Below, piece after piece: positions 1 to 63,325 of a DNA stretch of 64,000 nucleotides. The notes under the pieces are model-generated. The model was not told the origin of the DNA, made no database searches, and saw nothing but the letters and a program-made list of their open reading frames with translations. This stretch comes from Methylovulum miyakonense HT12. Lineage in GTDB: Bacteria > Pseudomonadota > Gammaproteobacteria > Methylococcales > Methylomonadaceae. The stretch is taken from assembly GCF_000384075.1 (NCBI RefSeq), contig NZ_KB913025.1, positions 2,827,044 through 2,891,043 of the forward strand. The letters are read 5' to 3'. A program made the translations under genes and the position numbers. Every line of letters starts with the position of its first letter. Position 1 is the stretch's first letter.

Positions 1-3000
1 GTGAACGGGGTGAAGTCAGTCAGGCGGCCCAGTCCGTCATAGACATAGTTGTTGGCGTTGCTGACGGTGGTGTCGGTGAATCCCCCGTCGCCCAGTTGGG
101 TGACGTTGCCGATACGGTCATAGGCGAGCTTTTTGGTGCCGGTGTTGAGGGTGTAGCCGTCGATGCGCCCGTCGCTGTCATAATGGCGGCTGACGGCGGG
201 CGTGCCGGTGACGGTGCTGAGGGTGTAGCTTTTGACCCCGCCCCAGGGCTGGTAGGCGAAGGCGTCGAGCAGGGTGGTGAAAGTACCGGTTGGGCTTTGG
301 GCGTAGGCGAGCTGGCTGGGGCGTCCGGCAGGGTCATAACTGTAACCGACGGTGAAGCCGGAGGGGTAGGTCATCGTCGCCACGCGCCCGCTGATGGCAT
401 CATAGGTATAGCTGACGCTCAGGTTGCGGCTGGCCTGGGCGGTGCTGATGCTGTGGGTCTTGGTTTGTAGGCGGCCTTCGCCGTCGTATTGCCAGTCGGT
501 GCTGCCGCTGGGGTCGTCGACGTGGCTGAGTTGCCCGACGGCGTTTTTGGCAGGCGGGTTGGCGGTCAGGTCGGCGGTGTTCAGGTCATAGCGGTAGCTG
601 ATGGTGCTGTCCACGGTGGTGGCCTGGGCGGCACCGTTGGCATCGGCGAGGTAGGTGCTGTCCGTCAGCAACCTGTCCAAGGCGTCGTAAGTGTATTGGG
701 TCGTGGTGTTGCGGGCGTCAATGCGGGTCTTGAGGTTGCCGGCAGGGTCGAAGCCCGTGTTGTTGGTGACGCCGCGGTCTTGGCTGTTTTCCTGGCTTTG
801 GTTGCCGAGGCCGTTAGTGGTGAAGCCCGTGCCATTGGGGCGCGGGCTGGCGGTGCTGTTGGCGCGCGGGTCTTTGACTTGGGTGAGTTGCCCTAGGCCG
901 TCGTAGCCGTAGGTGGTCAAGTAACTCGTTACGCTATCTATAACGTTGGTCAACAAATCCATGCGATCCAACGCGTCGTAGCCGTTGAGGGTCTGTTGCT
1001 TGTTGGCGGCGGTGCCGTCGGGGTAGTCGGTGGTGGCGGTCAGGTTGCCGTTAGGGTCGTAGTTGTATTCGCTGACCAGTTGGTTGGCGGCGTTGAGCAG
1101 TTTCCACAACCGGCCCAGGTTGTCGAAGCGGCGGTTGACGCTGGTGTAGGTGATTTCGGATGCGCCGCTGCCGGTGACCGTGCGTTCTTTGGTGCGGTTG
1201 CCGAGGTTATCCAACACGTACTTGAGCTTTTCTCCGGCGGCGTTTTGGATGGTGTTGAGCCTATGCGCATCGTCATAGGTGTAGGTGGTGGTGCCCGTGG
1301 CGGGGCTGGTGACGGTGTTCAGCAAGGTGTTGGGGTAGTAGGCCAATTGGGTGCTGCGTCCCGCCGTGGTGACGGTCTGCAATTGCCCGCGCGGGGTGTA
1401 GGCCAGTTGGGTGACGACACCGTTGGCGGCGGTGATTTGGGTCGGGCGGCCGTGGGCGTCGTAGCTGTCGTAGGTGGTCACTTGCCCTAAGGCGTTGGTG
1501 GTGGTTTTCAGCATCCGGCGGTTGTTGACGTTGGTCTCCGTGTCGGTGTAATACCCGTATTGGCTCTTGTCCGACGCGTCGCTGACATTGTTGCGTGGGC
1601 CGTCAACCGACAGGGTTTGCCCGAAGGCGTTGTAGGTGTATAGCCATTTGCGGGTGCTGGCCGGGCTGGCGGCAAGGCCTAACGCTCCTGTGCCATCGTT
1701 GGTGGACTGGACGGTCTTGCTGCACAGCACGCCGTCGGCGACCGCGCCGTTTTTGCCGCATTGGGGGGCGTTGGCGTTGGTGCTGTCGCCCCACGCCCAG
1801 GTGGTCAGGCGTTCGGGTTCGGCCTTTTTTTCGGGGACACGGAAGCGGGGATGCCATTGGGTGGTGATTTTGCGTTCGGCGGTGTTGGCGGTGGGGGCTG
1901 AGCCTTGCACGTCGGTTGGGCATTGGCCGCCCGCCAACAGCGGGCTGCCTTTCGCGATGCCTTCGATGCGCACGGTTTCCAGGTTGCGGGCGGTGTCGTA
2001 GGCGTAGCAGGTGACATTGCCGTTGAAGTCGGTGCGCTGGATGATGTTGCCGTTGGTATCGTAGCGCAAGTTGCTGGCGGAAGTGGGGCAGCTGCTAGGA
2101 TTGGGCGTGGCGGCGGGTTGGCTTTGTGACGTGACCTTGGCAACACCTTGGATGATCTGGAAATTCATCGGTTGCCCTGGGTTGAGCAAGTTGCCTGAGG
2201 TGTCACGCAAGCCTTCCGAGATGGTGCTTGATGTGCCGCTGGTGTAGGCAATGTCAACCCGGTCGATGTTTTTGCTGACATCGCCGTGTTGCGAAGAAAC
2301 GGCGAGGCCTTGGGTGTCGTAGCTCCAAGTGGCGTAACGTTGGCCGTTTTCGTCGATGATGCCGGTCAGGGCATTATGGATGCCGACGACAGGATTAGAA
2401 AAAGCGGCAGGGACGTAACTGGGGTTGTTGTATTCGTAAGTGCGTATGACAGGATTTGTAGGGGTACTTTCAGGGTAAACCACGGTGGTGAGGTTGCCAT
2501 AAGCCTCCAAGGTGTTACCGTCCTTATCTAAGTCGTATTGGTATTGATAAACGCTTCCGCCAGGGACGGTCATTTGCGCCATGCGTAGTTTTTCGTCGTA
2601 CAGAAAAGTCAGCGTATGGTGGGTGATTTGGTCGGTGACGCTAAGGAGCTTGCCACTGACGGCAACGAGCGGTGCCGGAGCTTGCGCGGCGGCGGTATAG
2701 AGGGAGGACAAGGGCGTGTCTTTGGTGCTGTAGTCCAAGACTAGGTTGACACTGCCGCTACGGTTTTTCAGAGCCTGAAGTTTTCCGTCAGTCCTGTAGG
2801 TTTCAGCGTTGTCGTTGCGGTCGGTCAGCTTCCAGCCACTGAACACGTTGTTGGAATCCTTGAGGTATTCTAGCCTGTCGGTGATGTCGGGGTCGGGTGT
2901 CCACTTGTCGGTGGCTTGGCTGTATTTGAAAACCAGTCGCCTGCCGTCATACTTGGCAACCATCGCAGTTTGTCCATCCACAGGCGGAGTGATTTCCCAA

Positions 3001-3740
3001 GTTGACGAAGTAATGGAGCGGTCATAGTAATGCCGCCATTGTGCGCCAAGATTATTGCTGGTGTTGGCTACCCCGGCATGGCTGTGATAAGTCCGTTCAA
3101 ACCGCAAGCTATTGCTGTCTTCGTAATCCTTCTCTATCTGGACTTTGTCGCCGAGACTGGTGTTAATGGGGTTGCCTTTAAATGGGCTACCAGAGCAAAG
3201 TTCAGGCGGCGGGGTTTTGGTCGGCTGAGGTGCGGTAGTGGGTTGGAGAGGACAATAGTAGTCAGTGGGGCTATTTGGAGGGAGCTGTGGATTACCAGCA
3301 AATATGAAAATGGCACTGATACTAGGAAACACCGATCGAAAGCAAAAAGGACGTTCAACGACGGCTCCAAAGTCAGTATGAATATCGTTACTGCCATTTA
3401 TACAATTCCAAGTTCTAAGATTCCCACGATAAACCTGATTAGAAGCATCAAAATTTTTTGGAAAATACCCTACCAATATTGGGAAGCCTGGAGGTGGGTA
3501 GTTAATGTAGTAACCTGGACAGCCCTCGCTTGGAGTTGAAACGTAGCCTTTTGTTTGTCCGCTATAAAGTAAACGAATAGCTGGTTCATATTCTGTTGCT
3601 ATTGTTCGGGTCGGCATTAACAGGATAGTTATAAACAGTAAAAAGATTGCTTTGATGCAAGACACTTTGAAATACCCCAAAAAACTGTCATGTTTCATTA
3701 AAATAACTGGCCTTTTTACTTTTAAAGGTGCACCTTGCAT
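1..3740 (-). CDS. Secreted RHS/YD-repeat protein (C-terminus beyond left edge)
   Basis: One open minus-strand frame runs without a stop from the start codon to the window edge, giving at least 1,246 residues. The ATG at 3740 has a good ribosome site (TAGGAG, 8 nt upstream). An in-frame ATG at 3698 is an alternative. The N-terminus is a signal peptide with a hydrophobic core (FLLFITILLM) after a long basic n-region. Around 3060-3240 the protein has the hallmarks of the RHS N-terminal domain (DUF6531-like): GNPINTSLGDK, then DYEDSNSLRFERTYHS and the W-RHYYDRS motif. The remainder carries YD repeats, for example YDGLGRLTD near position 30. RHS proteins form a beta-cocoon shell and usually end in a variable toxin or adhesin tip. 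That tip, and any immunity gene, lie outside the window, so the effector cannot be named. Confidence 0.88.
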   Translation of the reverse strand, partial: MQGAPLKVKRPVILMKHDSFLGYFKVSCIKAIFLLFITILLMPTRTIATEYEPAIRLLYSGQTKGYVSTPSEGCPGYYINYPPPGFPILVGYFPKNFDASNQVYRGNLRTWNCINGSNDIHTDFGAVVERPFCFRSVFPSISAIFIFAGNPQLPPNSPTDYYCPLQPTTAPQPTKTPPPELCSGSPFKGNPINTSLGDKVQIEKDYEDSNSLRFERTYHSHAGVANTSNNLGAQWRHYYDRSITSSTWEITPPVDGQTAMVAKYDGRRLVFKYSQATDKWTPDPDITDRLEYLKDSNNVFSGWKLTDRNDNAETYRTDGKLQALKNRSGSVNLVLDYSTKDTPLSSLYTAAAQAPAPLVAVSGKLLSVTDQITHHTLTFLYDEKLRMAQMTVPGGSVYQYQYDLDKDGNTLEAYGNLTTVVYPESTPTNPVIRTYEYNNPSYVPAAFSNPVVGIHNALTGIIDENGQRYATWSYDTQGLAVSSQHGDVSKNIDRVDIAYTSGTSSTISEGLRDTSGNLLNPGQPMNFQIIQGVAKVTSQSQPAATPNPSSCPTSASNLRYDTNGNIIQRTDFNGNVTCYAYDTARNLETVRIEGIAKGSPLLAGGQCPTDVQGSAPTANTAERKITTQWHPRFRVPEKKAEPERLTTWAWGDSTNANAPQCGKNGAVADGVLCSKTVQSTNDGTGALGLAASPASTRKWLYTYNAFGQTLSVDGPRNNVSDASDKSQYGYYTDTETNVNNRRMLKTTTNALGQVTTYDSYDAHGRPTQITAANGVVTQLAYTPRGQLQTVTTAGRSTQLAYYPNTLLNTVTSPATGTTTYTYDDAHRLNTIQNAAGEKLKYVLDNLGNRTKERTVTGSGASEITYTSVNRRFDNLGRLWKLLNAANQLVSEYNYDPNGNLTATTDYPDGTAANKQQTLNGYDALDRMDLLTNVIDSVTSYLTTYGYDGLGQLTQVKDPRANSTASPRPNGTGFTTNGLGNQSQENSQDRGVTNNTGFDPAGNLKTRIDARNTTTQYTYDALDRLLTDSTYLADANGAAQATTVDSTISYRYDLNTADLTANPPAKNAVGQLSHVDDPSGSTDWQYDGEGRLQTKTHSISTAQASRNLSVSYTYDAISGRVATMTYPSGFTVGYSYDPAGRPSQLAYAQSPTGTFTTLLDAFAYQPWGGVKSYTLSTVTGTPAVSRHYDSDGRIDGYTLNTGTKKLAYDRIGNVTQLGDGGFTDTTVSNANNYVYDGLGRLTDFTPF

Positions 3741-25530: not shown

Positions 25531-25871
25531 GGTTAGGCCAAAATGGGGTGCGGCTTTGGTACGTGGGACGCGCCCAAATTCGCGGATGTTCCAGACGGCG
25601 ATATTAACCGTTTCATCAGGTTTCGAAGACGGGATCTGGGCGTCGTCGATACGCTTCTTGGGCGCGGGGAGGCCGGCAGCAATTTCAGGGGGACTTGCCC
25701 GTGGCGCATAACAGCTATGTTAGTATTCGTTGGCCGATATGATGACGGCCAATAATATCGGTGCCGTCCGCTGAAGGACAACAATGCCGGACAAATTCCT
25801 TTACCTATGCCCCGGCTATTAGACAGGCGCTGGAATTTACATTCATCCATAAAAAATGCCCCACCTAGACT
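25531..25871. other. Intergenic region, no gene seen
   Basis: 341 bp between the ene-reductase and the ABC-2 genes. Open frames on both strands are shadows without ribosome sites. A short stem, TTGGCCG/CGGCCAA (25730-25752), is the only structure noticed. It must contain the promoter of the ABC-2 operon. Confidence 0.5.
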
Positions 25872-26825
25872 ATGAATTCCGATAATCCTGACCCCATCAT
25901 CTTCGTGCGCGGCGTTAACAAGACGTATCCCGGCGGTTTCCAAGCGCTGAAGAACATCGACTTGGACATCAAGCGTGGTGAGATATTCGCCTTGTTGGGC
26001 CCCAATGGTGCGGGCAAGACAACGCTGATCAGCATCATCTGCGGTATTGTCAACGCCACGTCTGGCACCATTACCGCCGACGGCCACGATACCGTGCGGG
26101 ATTACCGCGCGGCGCGGGCAAGCATCGGCTTGGTGCCGCAGGAACTGCATACGGACGCGTTCGAGTCGGTCTGGGCCACGATCAAATTCAGCCGGGGCTT
26201 GTTCGGTAAGGCGCCCAACGCAGCCTACCTGGAAAAAGTGCTGCGCGATCTATCGCTGTGGGACAAACGTGACCAAAAAATCATGGCGCTATCCGGTGGT
26301 ATGAAACGCCGGGTGCTGATCGCCAAGGCACTGGCGCATGAACCAACGATATTGTTCCTTGATGAGCCGAGCGCCGGTGTGGATGTGGAGTTACGGCACG
26401 ATATGTGGCGGATGGTGCACGGGCTTCGTGCACAAGGCACCACTATCATTCTGACCACCCATTACATCGAGGAAGCCGAAGATATGGCTGACCGGATTGG
26501 CGTCATCAACAAAGGTGAGCTGATCGTAGTTGAAGACAAGGAACGGCTGATGCGCAAACTTGGCAAAAAGCAGCTCGCCTTAGTGTTGCGGAAGCCTATG
26601 GCCAGCATCCCGGCCGGTTTAAACGCTTGGCCGTTAACGCTCTCCGACGACGGGCAAGCCCTGATTTACAGCTTCGATACCCAGAAAGAAGAATCCGGCA
26701 TTGCCGAACTGTTGCGCGCGCTGGGGGAACATGGCATCGATTTCAAGGATTTACAATCCACCGAAAGTTCGTTGGAAGACATCTTCGTCAGCCTGGTACA
26801 TAAGCCTATGGGGGCACGGGAATGA
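25872..26825 (+). CDS. ABC-2-type exporter ATP-binding protein (YadG-like)
   Basis: 317 residues. Walker [10 protein letters not shown] at about 44-52, signature LSGGMKRR, Walker [13 protein letters not shown] and switch histidine in TTHYIEEAE are all intact. The protein resembles E. coli YadG, whose substrate is not established. It pairs with the permease gene, which starts inside its stop (ATGA overlap), so the two form one transporter in the inner membrane. Confidence 0.92.
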
Positions 26826-27583
26826 ACATCTATGGTATTCGCGCCATTTACCACTTTGAAATGGCGCGCACCTTTCGCACTCTATGGGAAAGCATCGCCG
26901 CACCGGTGCTGACCACCTCGCTGTACTTCATCGTCTTCGGCAAAGCCATCGGTTCGCGTATGGGCGACATTGACAGCGTCAGTTACGGCGCCTTCATTAT
27001 CCCAGGGTTGGTGATGCTGAATTTACTGAACGAGAGCATTTCCAACGCTTCTTTCGGGATTTACATGCCCAAATGGGCGGGCACCATTTACGAGTTGCTA
27101 TCGGCGCCGGTTTCGTGGGCAGAAGTGCTGCTCGGTTATGTGGGGGCGGCGGCGACCAAGTCGGTGGTGTTGGGCCTGCTGATTCTGGGCACGGCTCGCC
27201 TGTTCGTGCCTTATGAGATCGCCCATCCCTTGTGGATGGTTGCTTTTCTGTTGCTGACCGCGGTGACCTTCAGTTTGTTCGGCTTCATCATCGGCCTGTG
27301 GGCGGACAGTTTTCAGAAACTACAGGTGGTGCCGATGTTGGTTGTCACCCCGCTCACATTCCTGGGAGGCGCGTTCTATTCGGTCAATATGTTGCCTCCC
27401 TTGTGGCAGAAGATCACCTTGTTCAATCCGGTGGTGTATCTGATCAGCGGCTTTCGCTGGAGCTTTTATGGTATTGCCGATGTGAATGTCGCCATCAGTA
27501 TTGGCATGACGTTTGGGTTTCTCATCATTTGCCTGGCCTTTGTGTGGTGGGTGTTTAAAACCGGGTATAAAATTAGGAACTGA
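26822..27583 (+). CDS. ABC-2-type exporter permease (YadH-like)
   Basis: 253 residues with six predicted membrane helices and the ABC-2 signature [20 protein letters not shown] before the last helices ([14 protein letters not shown]). It overlaps the ATPase gene by four bases. Cargo is unknown. Related YadH and Wzm/NodJ-like permeases move lipids, polysaccharides or drugs. This is the last GC-rich chromosomal gene before the AT-rich cassette array. Confidence 0.9.
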
Positions 27584-27659
27584 TGCGGGAACCGTTAACA
27601 TGAAAACCTCCAAAACATCTATAGACATAGTTTGGATGATATGCAGATGAGGAAATTCT

Positions 27660-27735
27660 TTGCCGTTTAGATAGTTATTGAGGTAATGCAAGTTTTGCAG
27701 TATGTATACGGAAACTATCTAATTACTAGTTAGGC
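27660..27735 (+). repeat. Degenerate attC-like site at the array start
   Basis: A 10-bp perfect inverted repeat, TTAGATAGTT (27667-27676) and AACTATCTAA (27713-27722), then the R-prime-like core GTTAGGC (27729-27735). The matching left outer box (GCCTAAC) is not recognisable, so this site is weak. Confidence 0.4.
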
Positions 27736-27761
27736 ATTTTTGGGCGGGCTATGGGAATTTT

Positions 27762-28550
27762 ATGAAGAATGGCATTTATACAACATGGCCTTTGTTGCTT
27801 TCCGCATTTCTTCTTATATTGAATGATCATGTACTTAAGTATTCTTTCCCAGGTATTGTTACAGGAAAAATATCTGACTTTTCCGGAATATTTCTTATCG
27901 TTTTGGTGTTGAGAGATGTATTTCCAAAGAAGGTGTTGGAAACTGCTGTGCTTGTAGTTGGGTTGTTTTTATACTGGAAAAGTCCATATTCTCAAGGCTT
28001 AATCGAATTCATTAATTCTTATAGCCCGATAGAGCTTATTCGAACGGTTGACTACAGTGACTTGGTGGCTTTTGTAATGATCCCTGTTGCACACTTTGTT
28101 TACGAGAAACGTGAAAGATTTACATTAAATTTAAATAAACCTGAGCTAATTAAAATCCCAGCCATTGTACTGACTGTCTTAGGAATTACAGGAACCTCGA
28201 CGTTACCTCAGCCTGATATATTCGAAATAAGAAAAGAATCCTCTAGCGAACGCATTGATATTGCTAAGGCAATCAGTGCCATTGAGAACGTTACTAACCC
28301 TTATAATTTAATCTGTAAAAAATGCAACCCATTGGATAACGAAGGTCTTTACGAGAATGACAAAATTCGCCTATTTTATCGTGTGTTGAAAAATAACAGG
28401 GGAATAGAATTCAGAATAATGGGTTCTCCAAGAGGGTCAATTTTTGATAGAGGCTCTCGGCAAGAAGAGGCTCAAATTGAAAGCGATTTGCAATATTCTT
28501 TAGGGCATCAGTTCAAAGGAATGGCGTTTGTTATTAAGCATTTGAAATAG
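27762..28550 (+). CDS. Cassette 1: membrane protein of unknown function
   Basis: 262 residues with a GGGAA ribosome site. Three to four membrane helices occupy about residues 8-145 (for example FLIVLVLRD and IPAIVLTVLGITG). A hydrophilic C-terminal domain of about 110 residues follows, containing a CKKC pair (ICKKCNP). The base composition is far more AT-rich than the flanking chromosomal genes, which points to transfer. I do not recognise the family. The gene fills the cassette between the first two attC-like sites. Confidence 0.75.
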   Translation: MKNGIYTTWPLLLSAFLLILNDHVLKYSFPGIVTGKISDFSGIFLIVLVLRDVFPKKVLETAVLVVGLFLYWKSPYSQGLIEFINSYSPIELIRTVDYSDLVAFVMIPVAHFVYEKRERFTLNLNKPELIKIPAIVLTVLGITGTSTLPQPDIFEIRKESSSERIDIAKAISAIENVTNPYNLICKKCNPLDNEGLYENDKIRLFYRVLKNNRGIEFRIMGSPRGSIFDRGSRQEEAQIESDLQYSLGHQFKGMAFVIKHLK

Positions 28551-28558
28551 ATAATCAT

Positions 28559-28648
28559 GCCCAGCATGGCACTCAACCGGAGCGCGGTTATAATGCGGTT
28601 TTGTTTATTCAGCTTCCCGTGCCGCGCCCGGTTAGTTCTACGTTAGGC
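28559..28648 (+). repeat. attC recombination site 1
   Basis: Outer left box GCCCAGC (28559-28565, two mismatches to GCCTAAC), inner arms CTCAACCGGAGCGCGG (28572-28587) and CCGCGCCCGGTTAGT (28622-28636) pairing with one bulged base, and outer right box GTTAGGC (28642-28648). The bulge and the arm order are the hallmarks of an integron attC site. Confidence 0.7.
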
Positions 28649-28692
28649 AATAAAAATGAACTGCCAGAAATTACTTAAGGGAAGCTAACCGG

Positions 28693-29058
28693 ATGACCTA
28701 TGATGTAATAGCTATAGCTTGTGAACAGCTAAGTTATAGGGATAAATTGCGTCTCGCACAGTTACTCATTCAGACCGCCAGAAAAGAGGAAGAAAATGCA
28801 AATCCTCAAAATCGTTCTGAACCAAAAAACGTTGAGAAAGCAAAAGAAGAGACTTTGAATGAAATCGGCACTATAGAATACGTTGTTGAAAGACTATTGA
28901 AGTTAAAACCTGTCAAAAAACAATCCCTAACGAATTCAATCAAAGCCATGTTTCAGTTCCAAGGTGGAATTGCTGACTCAGATGTAGACAAAATTATTTC
29001 TGAATTGAAAAAACGTAAGCTCATTAAAATTGAGCAGAATAAAGTTATTTATTTGTAG
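28693..29058 (+). CDS. Cassette 2: small two-part protein, possibly DNA-binding
   Basis: 121 residues. The N-terminal part reads EQLSYRDKLRLAQLLIQTAR, a helical motif that I recall from the N-termini of various small antitoxin-like or orphan proteins. After a charged linker (about 35-55) the C-terminal part, with VDKIISELKKRKLIKIEQNK and VIYL, has the helix-plus-wing shape of a small winged-helix domain. AT-rich. It precedes hicBA by 49 bp in the same cassette. A role as an accessory regulator is a guess. Confidence 0.6.
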   Translation: MTYDVIAIACEQLSYRDKLRLAQLLIQTARKEEENANPQNRSEPKNVEKAKEETLNEIGTIEYVVERLLKLKPVKKQSLTNSIKAMFQFQGGIADSDVDKIISELKKRKLIKIEQNKVIYL

Positions 29059-29107
29059 CGTGTTAAAGTTAGTTATCAAGCCTGAGCATAGATGGGATTT
29101 AAATAGC

Positions 29108-29323
29108 ATGATGAAACAATTCGATGTAGTTATTGAGAAAGATTCCGAGGGATATTTTGTAGCTTCTGTTCCAGCCCTGAAAGGTTGTCATACACAAGCT
29201 AAGTCATTAGATGTACTTATGGAGCGTATTAGAGAAGCTATTGAGCTTTGTTTGGAAGTTCAGGACGAGATGTTCGAGCCATTGGATTTTGTTGGCATTC
29301 AGCGAATTTCAGTTGCGGCATGA
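29108..29323 (+). CDS. hicB: HicB-family antitoxin
   Basis: 71 residues from the ATG at 29108 (a second ATG follows at 29111). The partial RNase H-like fold of HicB is visible: FDVVIEKDSEGYFVASVPAL, then GCHTQAKSLDVLMERIREAIELCL. No C-terminal DNA-binding domain, so this is the short form. It overlaps the toxin gene in ATGA. It should bind and mask HicA and repress the pair. The antitoxin-first order differs from E. coli hicAB but is common. Confidence 0.88.
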   Translation: MMKQFDVVIEKDSEGYFVASVPALKGCHTQAKSLDVLMERIREAIELCLEVQDEMFEPLDFVGIQRISVAA

Positions 29324-29544
29324 CATCTTTTCCAAGCTTAACCGGCAAAGATTTATTGCTTGCCTTGAAAAAAGCTGGTTTTTCGGTAGTTCGAGTTAGG
29401 GGAAGCCATCATTTTGTACAACATCCAGATGGTCGCTCAACGGTTGTGCCCGTCCACGCGGGCGAAAGCGTTGGGCCGGGCTTAATAAGCAAAATTCTTC
29501 GTGATTGTGAATTAAGCCGTGAGCAACTACAAAAATTCTTATGA
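29320..29544 (+). CDS. hicA: HicA-family mRNA interferase toxin
   Basis: 74 residues, start overlapping the hicB stop. It has the double-stranded RNA-binding-like fold with the catalytic histidine in RVRGSHHFVQHPDGRST and the following VPVHAGESVGPGLISKIL, as in active HicA. It cleaves mRNA when free of HicB. The intact toxin in an integron cassette probably stabilises the array. The attC site starts 12 bp after its stop. Confidence 0.9.
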   Translation: MTSFPSLTGKDLLLALKKAGFSVVRVRGSHHFVQHPDGRSTVVPVHAGESVGPGLISKILRDCELSREQLQKFL

Positions 29545-29555
29545 ATACCGAGTTT

Positions 29556-29608
29556 GCCTAACTCAATGCTCCAGCGGATTTTAGCTACCGCTGGGCTAAG
29601 CGTTAGAA
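29556..29608 (+). repeat. attC recombination site 2
   Basis: Short canonical attC: GCCTAAC (29556-29562), then CTCCAGCGG facing CCGCTGGG across a 10-nt loop, and GTTAGAA (29602-29608). Spacers and asymmetry match typical 50-60-bp attC sites. This is the clearest of the three. Confidence 0.8.
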
Positions 29609-29621
29609 CTTACGAGTACCC

Positions 29622-29838
29622 ATGGCGAAACTTTCAGGGCAACAAGCCTATCTCGCAATGTTTCCGTTTCTTGAAGCAGAATATCGGCTCACATCATCTG
29701 GTGAAATCGGCGGATTGCTAGGCAGCATAACTACCAGATGGCCCACCTGCTGACCCTGCCATCAAAGAGCAGTGGAGCGAAGCAGTAGCCGCCGCATTAG
29801 AAGGTAAGGTCAATGCCGCCCTCACTTTCACTAAATGA
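29622..29838 (+). pseudogene. Cassette 3: frameshifted small gene
   Basis: An ATG at 29622 opens MAKLSGQQAYLAMFPFLEAE, then SSGEIGGLLGSI, and soon reaches a stop. The continuation LPDGPPADPAIKEQWSEAV, then EGKVNAALTFTK and a TGA at 29838, lies one base out of frame. Joined, it is a 71-72-residue protein whose AYLAMFPFLE and GGLLGS signature recurs in small hypothetical proteins, some near polymorphic-toxin loci. That link is from memory only. The one-base shift near 29728-29732 makes it inactive unless it is a sequencing error. Confidence 0.65.
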
Positions 29839-29856
29839 GTACCACAATGCGTCAGG

Positions 29857-29920
29857 TTCTAACCCTGCGCCCAAGCCGGACGGCCGCTAATCGCGTCCGC
29901 CCCTTAGCTTCACGTTGAAT
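29857..29920 (+). repeat. attC recombination site 3
   Basis: Left box TTCTAAC (29857-29863), inner arms AAG-CCGGACG and CGTCCGCC-CTT, right box GTTGAAT (29914-29920). The outer boxes are imperfectly complementary, so it is weaker than site 2. It follows the broken cassette gene by 18 bp and ends the recognisable array. Confidence 0.6.
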
Positions 29921-30084
29921 GGTCGCTCATTGAATCGCAGCCGACATTGATTGGAATTCTTTGAATGCTCTTGTGGGTCGAGTCCGGCCAGTTGATTATT
30001 TTACGTGGCTGGAATGCCAATCTAGGCTTTCAGGTGCTGTTCAACTCAGGCCAAGCCTGAACTGGCACATCTAACAACCGCCAT

Positions 30085-31980
30085 TTACCAATGCAACGCC
30101 CGTAACCTGGAAAACTTTTTCCGCTGGTGTTCCTGCATCCTGACCATCACATTCACTAAGGCTTCAATGGCATCCAGTATGTACGGGCCTTTGTTCAGCA
30201 TCACGCATTCCGCCCGCACCGCCATCGCCGCGTCGGTAAACTCCGGCCTGGAACGCACGCCTTTCTTGGCGATGGATTCCAGCACTTGGGTGGCCCAAAT
30301 CACTGGCACATGCGCCGCCTCGCAAAGCCACAGCAATTCTTCCTGGATTTCGGCGAGCCTGGCGCTACCCAGTTCCACCGCCAAATCCCCGCGTGCGATC
30401 ATGATGCCCAAGCTATGCCGGCCAATGGTGCCGAGAATAATATCCGGGAGGTTTTTCAGGGCAAGGTTGGTTTCGATTTTGGCAATGATCGGCAATTCGG
30501 TGGCGTTGCGTTTGGCCAGTCCGGCCATTAAATAATCCATGTCGGCTAGCGTTTCGACAAAGGAAAAGCCTATCAGGTCGGCGTGGGTGCAGGCAAAATC
30601 TAAATCCTGCAAATCCTTTTCGCTTAAGGGCGGCAAACCCAACTGGGTGTCAGGAAAGTTGATGCCTTTGTCGCTTTGGATACAAACGCCGCTGCTGCGC
30701 ACTTGGTTGACACGCAACAAGGTGCCTTGTCCGGTGATGGCTTCCACCACCGTGCCTAGCTTGCCGTCATCAATCCACACTGGCTGGCCTATCTTTAATT
30801 TGGCGCTGAATGACGACAAGGTGCAGCCGATTTGTGCAGGCTGTGTCAGGGCTCCGTTTTCATCGTATTTGGCAGGTTGGCCGATAACATCATTTTCGGT
30901 CAGCAATAACAAATCGTTTTTGAACAAGCGTATTTCCAGTGGCATACCGGCAAACGTGCCCAGATTAAACCTCTCATTGGTGTCGCCCTCATCCGCCGGG
31001 CCAGTGGGCACTAAGGCCACTTCGCAACCGGATTCCAAGTAACTGCTTTGGTCACAACTCGCCAGCCATGCCTTATCGGATTCGGCTTGCTCGACCAGCA
31101 AATGCCGCGCTTTACCCCGCGCATCGACAAATTCCAGGCGGCAACCAGAGTCCAGTTGGCTGTGCAGCGCCTCAGGGATGGGGACGCGGAACAGCGGCCC
31201 GCCTCCCTCCCCATGGCCATGCCGATCCTCGTGGTTTGCCGTCAACAGCAGCCGGGCTTTGGCAATGACGGCGCCACGCACATCTTTTTTGACTTTAATG
31301 TGATGGATGGGCGGCCCTAAAGCAACCGTTCCGGTGCGGATCTTATGCCCGGCCAGATCCATCAGGATGCGGCAGATTTTACCGGTTTCGGTTTCCGCAC
31401 GGCGGATATTGCGGATCATATTGCGCCAGACTGGCGCGTCGTCATGGGCGCAATTAATCCTCGCGCAGGTCATGCCTTTATCCAGCAACGCCAGGATCAA
31501 CTCGTAATTCCAGGCGGTTTCCGTGGCTAGCGTCACCATCACATGGACTTTGCTGTGTTCGTGGAATGGCCCGAACAATTCGATGCTGTGCTGCTCAAGC
31601 AATTGCAAACCGCGGTTAAACCCTGACTCGCTCGGGTTTTTGTCATCCAGGGAATAGCTCTTATCGGTTGCCCGCTTGAGCACGTCGGTCACCGCGTCCA
31701 ATGTCGATAACACCGAGGCTTCCGAGCGCCCCAATGACGACAACCCGGCTTGCGCAAGCCTATCTTGCAAATGGCGCAGGTCGAATTGCCTTAAGGCCAG
31801 ATAATGCGCAAGGTTCACCGCGCTTTTATTGAACACGCCAGCGCGGTAGTAAGCTTGGTATTTGTCCAGGCGGCTGCTTGCGTGGGCAGTGATTTTTTCG
31901 CGTAAATCAGTCACATCAATGAGCAGTTGCTTTAGGGTGTCGTCGTAAATGTCGTGATTGCTTATGTTGGTGTCGGTCAT
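30085..31980 (-). CDS. Divergent pyruvate kinase-family protein
   Basis: 631 residues, against about 470 in ordinary enzymes. An N-terminal helical extension fills about 1-140. The barrel starts at VMVTLATETAWNYELILALL. Active-site residues are kept: R174 and N176 in ARINCAH, R215 in KIRTG, K501/E503 in IIAKIETN, D532 in ARGDLAVELG, and T564 in WATQVLES. The B-domain region is greatly enlarged (about 218-445) and the C-terminal allosteric domain is absent. Two of the four usual K+ ligands are replaced (A178, L209), and Lys213 sits where K+-dependent enzymes have Glu117. Lys at that position is known from K+-independent pyruvate kinases. It may still convert PEP and ADP to pyruvate and ATP, but another role is possible. 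Confidence 0.85.
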   Translation of the reverse strand: MTDTNISNHDIYDDTLKQLLIDVTDLREKITAHASSRLDKYQAYYRAGVFNKSAVNLAHYLALRQFDLRHLQDRLAQAGLSSLGRSEASVLSTLDAVTDVLKRATDKSYSLDDKNPSESGFNRGLQLLEQHSIELFGPFHEHSKVHVMVTLATETAWNYELILALLDKGMTCARINCAHDDAPVWRNMIRNIRRAETETGKICRILMDLAGHKIRTGTVALGPPIHHIKVKKDVRGAVIAKARLLLTANHEDRHGHGEGGGPLFRVPIPEALHSQLDSGCRLEFVDARGKARHLLVEQAESDKAWLASCDQSSYLESGCEVALVPTGPADEGDTNERFNLGTFAGMPLEIRLFKNDLLLLTENDVIGQPAKYDENGALTQPAQIGCTLSSFSAKLKIGQPVWIDDGKLGTVVEAITGQGTLLRVNQVRSSGVCIQSDKGINFPDTQLGLPPLSEKDLQDLDFACTHADLIGFSFVETLADMDYLMAGLAKRNATELPIIAKIETNLALKNLPDIILGTIGRHSLGIMIARGDLAVELGSARLAEIQEELLWLCEAAHVPVIWATQVLESIAKKGVRSRPEFTDAAMAVRAECVMLNKGPYILDAIEALVNVMVRMQEHQRKKFSRLRALHW

Positions 31981-63212: not shown

Positions 63213-63325
63213 GGTGATCGTGCCGGTCCTCCCGCAACGATACGCTGTGAACCCCGCCAGGTCCGGAAGGGAGCAACGGTAACAGCAGATTCGTGTGCCG
63301 GGATGTGGCTGGTACGATCGCCGCC
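63213..63325 (+). ncRNA. ffs: Signal recognition particle 4.5S RNA
   Basis: About 113 nt matching the small bacterial SRP RNA. The conserved core CCAGGTCCGGAAGGGAGCA, the GGAA tetraloop and the later GTGTGCCGGGATGTGGCTGG are all there. Terminal helices pair GGTGATCGT with ACGATCGCC. It binds Ffh to target membrane proteins. It is 28 bp upstream of dnaX, a common order. Confidence 0.95.

Follow-up and report, generated by a model that had tools for sequence, protein, structure and literature searches.

A decapitated chromosomal integron in Methylovulum miyakonense HT12, probably one of many integrase-less attI sites in its bacterial family

We analysed a stretch of 64,000 nucleotides of the Methylovulum miyakonense HT12 genome (contig NZ_KB913025.1, positions 2,827,044 to 2,891,043), hereafter named the window; coordinates are window positions unless a contig or a locus is given. 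Very probably, this stretch harbours a decapitated chromosomal integron, in which an attI region, i.e. the integration platform, still heads three gene cassettes, and the integrase gene intI is gone except for its first codons. It would be one of many integrase-less attI sites in the bacterial family, and the DNA behind some of these sites in other genomes appears to have been replaced, presumably by an integrase acting in trans. We put the probability of this reading at about 0.88. In the usual picture of integrons, one intI goes with one attI and one array, and arrays lacking intI are regarded as remnants or as products of chance insertion.

The history that we propose has four steps. An integron with an integrase of a type bearing an N-terminal extension of about 145 aa would once have stood at the window locus, with its attI and its cassettes. 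Its intI would then have been removed from about codon 7-8 on, leaving attI and the three cassettes in place; that a deletion was responsible, and in what order these events occurred, is reconstructed. Many attI sites of the family likewise have no adjoining integrase, are scattered over the genomes and mostly head cassette-like genes. Finally, to judge from orthologous pairs of sites in other genomes, the DNA behind some attI sites may have been replaced after the local loss of intI, presumably by an integrase supplied in trans. Below, genomes are labelled G### (G000 being the source genome), loci L### and contigs C#.

The left end of the element is the attI region (27582-27735, + strand). 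It is 71-79% identical over 100-165 bases to 13 loci, and these matches include the stretch lying between intI and the first cassette in G166 and G082, where a full-length 462-aa intI of opposite reading direction adjoins it. In the window, a start codon and 6-7 codons (MLTVPAS, 27581-27601, - strand) read leftwards from an ATG at 27601-27599 into the end of a permease gene, behind a GGAGG ribosome-binding site (27607-27611, - strand) which is kept in most of the relatives printed. The same start and ribosome site open the intact 462-aa IntI of G166. Because it matches the attI stretch of intact integrons and bears this intI start and ribosome site, 27582-27735 is best taken as the attI region of an integron without its intI. 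Judging from the sequence, intI is missing from about codon 7-8 onward, and its start now adjoins the end of an ABC-2 permease gene (26822-27583, + strand; PF01061, 104 bits), a chromosomal gene thus joined to the truncated integron. On the permease side, the stretch 25838-27579 is 89% identical to the relative G002 and the similarity ends after 27579; on the other side, BLAST similarity to the attI-bearing relatives starts at 27582. The element therefore begins at about 27582, left of the position 27660 given in a preliminary description made from the sequence alone, which had overlooked the attI head.

Within this region, the attI core (27694-27735, + strand) matched R2, a 45-base sequence model of the core built from 33 sites with the window excluded, at 38.5 bits (E 5.9e-11). 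The core ends with the R box GTTAGGC (27729-27735, + strand), the crossover being predicted after G27729, and it forms no stable hairpin. A direct repeat that resembles the left part of the core lies at 27631-27646 (+ strand) as a weak second R2 match (5.0 bits, E 1.9), and a similar repeat was seen by eye in the attI regions of relatives. The array thus has an attI ahead of its first cassette, as a complete integron does, and no intact intI beside that attI. Elsewhere in the source genome, a second, weak R2 match (C1:4637959-4637990, 23 bits) has no GTT part.

The cassettes are delimited by attC sites, for which a covariance model, R1, was built. Stretches beside 20 intI genes from the same bacterial family served as its source; the strand that leads away from intI carried 46 of the candidate attC found by an arm-and-box scan of these (score >=12), and the opposite strand 4. 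R1 comprises 35 sites beside intI, 33 from other genomes of the family, 2 from the resident main integron and none from the window. Over the full window, at E up to 10, R1 returned three matches only, all on the + strand, in agreement with the three single-orientation sites at 28559, 29556 and 29857 predicted earlier, which thus withstand the refuting test set for them: attC1 (28559-28648, 50.5 bits, E 9.4e-12), attC2 (29556-29608, 20.7 bits, E 1.5e-3) and the last site, attC3 (29857-29920, 23.0 bits, E 3.3e-4 at 29861-29916, with R'' starting at 29857). The next-best score between 27500 and 30100, with filters off, was 8.7 bits, and no match at E<=1 was found in about 180 kb from ten chromosomal loci where no array is known, which were among the 31 sequences searched. 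A decayed attC at 27664-27737, our first idea for the structure at the left end, was rejected: it reached only 5.1 bits with R1, and the attI result accounts for the structure. The R''/R' and L''/L' arms, the extrahelical base and the GTT are present in the alignments of the window attC. At genome scale attC2 and attC3 are less secure, the match at 29861 having an E of 0.024 and that at 29556 being absent from the list, in which 150 of 993 candidates were scored, so that attC counts in the source genome are lower bounds. These two weaker sites are supported because of their place in the array. Regarding folding, only attC2 was clearly better than shuffled sequences, one of 200 shuffles being equally good. 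DNA similar to attC1 occurs in 87 of the 201 family genomes, and once in the source genome (4 candidates scored per genome); DNA similar to attC3 is found in several family genomes.

The source genome, a single contig of 4.69 Mb, holds one integron integrase over the cut-off (TIGR02249, 495 bits; C1:4071082-4072026), 1.2 Mb from the window, and no match to intI was found in the 64 kb of the window itself. With three attC sites and this distant intI, the array was rightly called integrase-less and falls in the class of clusters of attC sites lacking integron integrases (CALIN); the label stands and is incomplete, since the array has kept its attI region along with the first codons of intI, hence our term decapitated integron. 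The resident intI is followed by eleven attC sites of about 120 bp scoring at least 46 bits, and by some weaker ones. Its product is 42% identical to the integrase type that matches the window attI, a type with about 145 residues before the first Pfam domain which was not found in the source genome. The resident integron's own attI had no match with the window's attI model, and attC1 is of another type than the 120-bp attC that follow the resident intI. That the array depends on an integrase elsewhere, as had been supposed, is thus borne out for the presence of one such gene, but the dependence itself is not established, given the divergent IntI, the other attI and the other attC type. With no integrase of the matching type in the genome, the window platform is probably static at present, unless the resident, unlike integrase works on it or a matching one enters.

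The resident integron also bears on another origin, in which the window would be an ordinary CALIN: cassettes excised elsewhere would have entered a secondary site of the chromosome (attG) through the action of the resident IntI. PMC12444791 discusses such insertion as a way in which integrase-less cassettes can arise, and a complete integron is indeed present in the genome. A chance attG site, however, would not carry a 150-bp attI region together with an intI start and a ribosome site, and attC1 is unlike the attC type that the resident integrase is associated with. As the left boundary is an attI region and not a chance chromosomal target, we rejected this origin for the array, and regard it as very improbable.

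A genome-wide search for further attC sites, suggested earlier, did bring out more integrase-less R1 clusters, at 1.456-1.480, 3.599-3.602 and 1.101 Mb, as well as single sites. The first is a 24-kb array (C1:1456272-1480219; L147 and L148), at the head of which stand an exact 106-nt copy of the resident attI region and a 34-codon IntI stub. Another (C1:3599398-3601911; L149) lies on the minus strand and has a weak partial match to the resident attI (E 0.010 and 0.036) upstream of its attC. Integrase-less arrays with attI are therefore present in the source genome for two integron types.

Are such sites frequent in the family? A 22-base attI pattern had 48 occurrences in 25 of 201 genomes, counting that in the window, and its reversed control had 1. 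R2, at E<=0.01, detected 331 sites in 82 of the 201 genomes, with up to 16 per genome. In a control taken from the class, 8 of 369 genomes matched, two of which are family members. For 78 of the 331 sites, all of them among the matches listed, we examined the surroundings from about 2 kb upstream to at most 4 kb downstream; 68 come from eleven multi-site genomes and 10 from eight others. An intact IntI adjoins one of them. N-terminal IntI stubs ending at codon 39-95 are present at seven, and IntI fragments lie farther downstream at L269 and L274. Around the 78 sites, R1 gave 97 attC rows, all of them on the strand of the attI; 93 lie downstream of it and 4 upstream. As some stretches overlap, these rows count three attC twice, and two of the four upstream rows are downstream attC of a neighbouring attI. 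At least one downstream attC was found at 44 loci. An earlier set of 44 loci that included the window behaved similarly: 30 of its 31 attC rows followed the attI on its own strand, and they came from 22 loci (among which two pairs repeat the same site). The longest open reading frame (ORF) of at least 80 aa starting within 250 nt of the site lies on the + strand in 61 of the 78 cases and on the - strand in 4, and is lacking in 13. Regarding distance to integrases, 1 of the 9 sites read in G166 adjoins an intact intI, and none of the 7 read in G121 lies within 250 kb of either of its two intI.

Two side observations concern the spread of these sites. At L156, L160, L163, L164 and L166 the stub ends at codon 39 and is followed by DNA that looks similar by eye, as though a single truncated version had passed from genus to genus. 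In G151, two attI copies (L233 and L237, contig C183) are about 3.2 kb apart and their upstream flanks are 87% identical, a sign of tandem duplication of a platform.

The dispersal itself could be explained differently, if the attI-like core were part of some other dispersed element, a repeat or a promoter element, lying by chance before genes. This would fit the up to 16 copies per genome, the unlike sequence farther upstream in many copies, and the absence of a detected downstream attC in the stretch read at 34 of the 78 sites. Yet copies occupy the attI position of intact integrons (L157 and L168), the GTT is found at the model position in 73 of the 78 sites, the attC rows stand downstream on the same strand, and, as described below, sequence divergence starts at the crossover base. 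A dispersed element of another kind is therefore improbable in our opinion.

The idea that platforms are used in trans comes from other genomes, where five cross-species pairs of sites have colinear chromosomal flanks up to attI, with intI absent in both members. In four of them (L211/L218, L212/L222, L216/L232 and L219/L235) the flanks are 91-93% identical over about 1.1 kb, and in the fifth (L220/L233) 95% identical over 573 bp; the attI regions are 82-99% alike over 150 bp. Directly past attI, global alignment gave 28-39% identity, the chance level. In the four pairs that were profiled, the 20 bases that precede the G of the GTT were 100% identical, and identity beyond it was 25-65%. In 9 of the 10 pair members, a + strand ORF of at least 98 aa has its start no more than 45 nt from the GTT. 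Since intI is missing from both members, it was probably gone before they split, and the DNA would have changed later. Other pairs (L224/L252; L239 or L242 against L211 or L218) are weaker, their attI being themselves unlike.

These pairs are what speaks against a fossil origin, in which each attI-headed array was filled by its own intI and intI was then lost independently each time, with no use in trans: five shared intI-less junctions of flank and attI, with different DNA past the GTT, need either a change after the loss or matching independent losses. On the other hand, the intI stubs at 7 of the 78 loci and at the window are what such losses would leave, and IntI (E<=1e-60) is absent from 29 of the 82 R2-positive genomes, including G072 (14 sites) and G161 (11 sites). 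Derivation of CALINs from integrase loss or translocation is also a published view (PMC11389934). The pair argument is moreover weakened by the fact that a downstream attC was found in only 5 of the 10 pair members (L218, L220, L222, L233 and L235). We consider such a static origin unlikely, and prefer the decapitated integron with replacement elsewhere in trans.

Several points nevertheless weigh against that preference. In the 29 genomes without recognised IntI, use in trans by a recognised IntI is impossible now. The 34 attI sites and the five pair members devoid of a downstream attC count here as well, and for L216/L232, where neither side has one, cassettes are unproved. The two scans differ in depth, with 17 candidates scored per genome in the class control versus 31 in the family, and the training places of R2 were found by similarity to the window flank, which makes its total for the family dependent on the window. 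The folds of attC1 and attC3 are little better than those of shuffled sequences (z -1.1 and -1.7). Lastly, no empty site was found: the joined flanks were searched in 201 genomes, and no match spanned both flanks fully. One match, on contig C110 of G047 (query 2-170), extends about 24 bases beyond the join and was set aside, because by eye it is an attI copy followed by other DNA; the same holds for several matches ending a few bases beyond the join (1-148 and 1-149). The permease gene was not found beside a pyruvate-kinase gene, its neighbour across the element, in the relatives' loci that were read. With neither an empty site nor an orthologue of the window locus, deletion and cassette exchange are unseen at the window itself.

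A wider proposal can be drawn from the same data, for which we see about even chances: family genomes would carry distributed integrons, i.e. scattered integrase-less attI platforms (up to 16 per genome) sharing integrases in trans, which would allow insertion and expression of cassettes at many addresses, and the window would be one such platform, born by loss of intI.

The cassettes of the window, with boundaries taken from the GTT boxes, are as follows. Cassette 1 (27730-28642, + strand) runs from the TT of the attI R box to the G of the attC1 R' box and contains a gene for a 262-aa protein (27762-28550, + strand) of unrecognised family, as noted before. This protein had no match above cut-off in Pfam, NCBIfam or PADLOC. 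Its N-terminal half is hydrophobic by eye, and its earlier description as a membrane protein comes from reading the sequence. Its family is present in 3 of the 201 family genomes, the source included, with 83% identity in G066 and 67% in G044; a decayed attI suspected by eye ahead of the G066 relative gave no R2 match at E<=5 and was discarded. A relative at 36% identity is found in a metagenome-assembled genome of Ectothiorhodospiraceae (L074), where it lies about 1.2 kb from an ORF resembling, by eye, an integron integrase (L074:357-1343 and 2554-3378).

Cassette 2 (28643-29602, + strand), between the GTT of attC1 and that of attC2, has three genes. The first, orfA (28693-29058, + strand; 121 aa), may encode a C-terminal winged helix, according to Pfam hints below cut-off. 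The other two confirm the hicBA identification made earlier: hicB, the antitoxin gene (29108-29323, + strand; 71 aa; PF15919, 29.5 bits, cut-off 27), and hicA, the toxin gene (29320-29544, + strand; 74 aa; PF07927, 62.9 bits, cut-off 27), which are adjacent and form a predicted HicBA toxin-antitoxin pair. As was suggested earlier, this pair may give the array a means to persist. Loci with an orfA relative alone had attC in 4 of 8 cases (L139, L140, L142 and L145), and those with a hicBA relative alone in none of 8, at E<=0.1 in the fetched stretch (L129-L132, L135, L137, L138 and L141). In G133 (L128), a partial orfA, hicB and a partial hicA occur together. Cassette 3 (29603-29914, + strand), between the GTT of attC2 and that of attC3, has a broken small ORF as its only one (29622-29838, + strand), with its two halves in different frames, as seen by comparison with the frames of L143; in G062, a relative of 72 aa is unbroken. 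Promoters predicted in the array numbered 4, no more than in shuffled sequences (mean 5.8). Cassettes 1 and 2 are AT-rich (GC 0.38-0.40) relative to the chromosome on either side (0.51-0.56), as had been described for all three, but cassette 3 (0.53) is not.

On the right, the chromosome resumes with a pyruvate-kinase-like gene (30085-31980, - strand; PRK14725, 679.3 bits, cut-off 642), and similarity to G009 on this flank ends at 30071. The first 67 or so bases past the last attC (29915-29981) match scattered places in other family genomes, and are perhaps an intergenic repeat. Far from the array, a bacterial small signal recognition particle RNA gene was detected at 63221-63317 (74.4 bits).

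How does this element compare with those already described? Like a CALIN in the sense of IntegronFinder, it has attC cassettes in one orientation and no intI nearby. An attI is not required by the definition of CALIN in PMC9024848, whereas the array in the window retains both an attI region and the start of intI. CALINs have been published as possibly mobilised in trans (PMC11389934 and PMC12444791). Loss of intI from chromosomal integrons, likewise leaving cassettes behind, is on record for Xanthomonas (PMC12444791), where CALINs sit at conserved loci away from intI, and for Treponema phagedenis (PMC3607928); in the available portions of these two accounts, neither many intI-less attI nor differing cassettes behind orthologous ones are reported. 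Methylococcales-type attC sites are known as a class, with a published taxon-specific covariance model (PMC8352920); the order is the same, and the window attC were scored here with the separately built R1. The integrases of 'clade 15', about 120 aa longer than usual according to PMC2426708, resemble in length the type matching the window attI, with its 145 residues before the first Pfam domain and its gene absent from the source genome. Insertions at attG and delta-attI gene cassettes (PMC12901181) likewise involve recombination sites beyond the canonical attI/attC pair, but the window array is headed by an attI region, and this region is no chance site, nor is it a partial attI terminating a cassette. 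Among the best-ranked titles and abstract openings of the open-access literature, we found no description of scattered attI sites heading integrase-less arrays. Nor did we see there the wider pattern of many integrase-less attI platforms per genome, with different DNA behind orthologous ones.

Searches for attC and intI alone overlook attI, as happened in the first reading of this window. A recognisable attI in many integrase-less arrays shows where these arrays come from, and makes it possible to ask directly if an attI platform can function where no integrase stands beside it. Should this be so, a genome could offer many addresses for expression, with a single integrase serving them all, or one that comes in by gene transfer.

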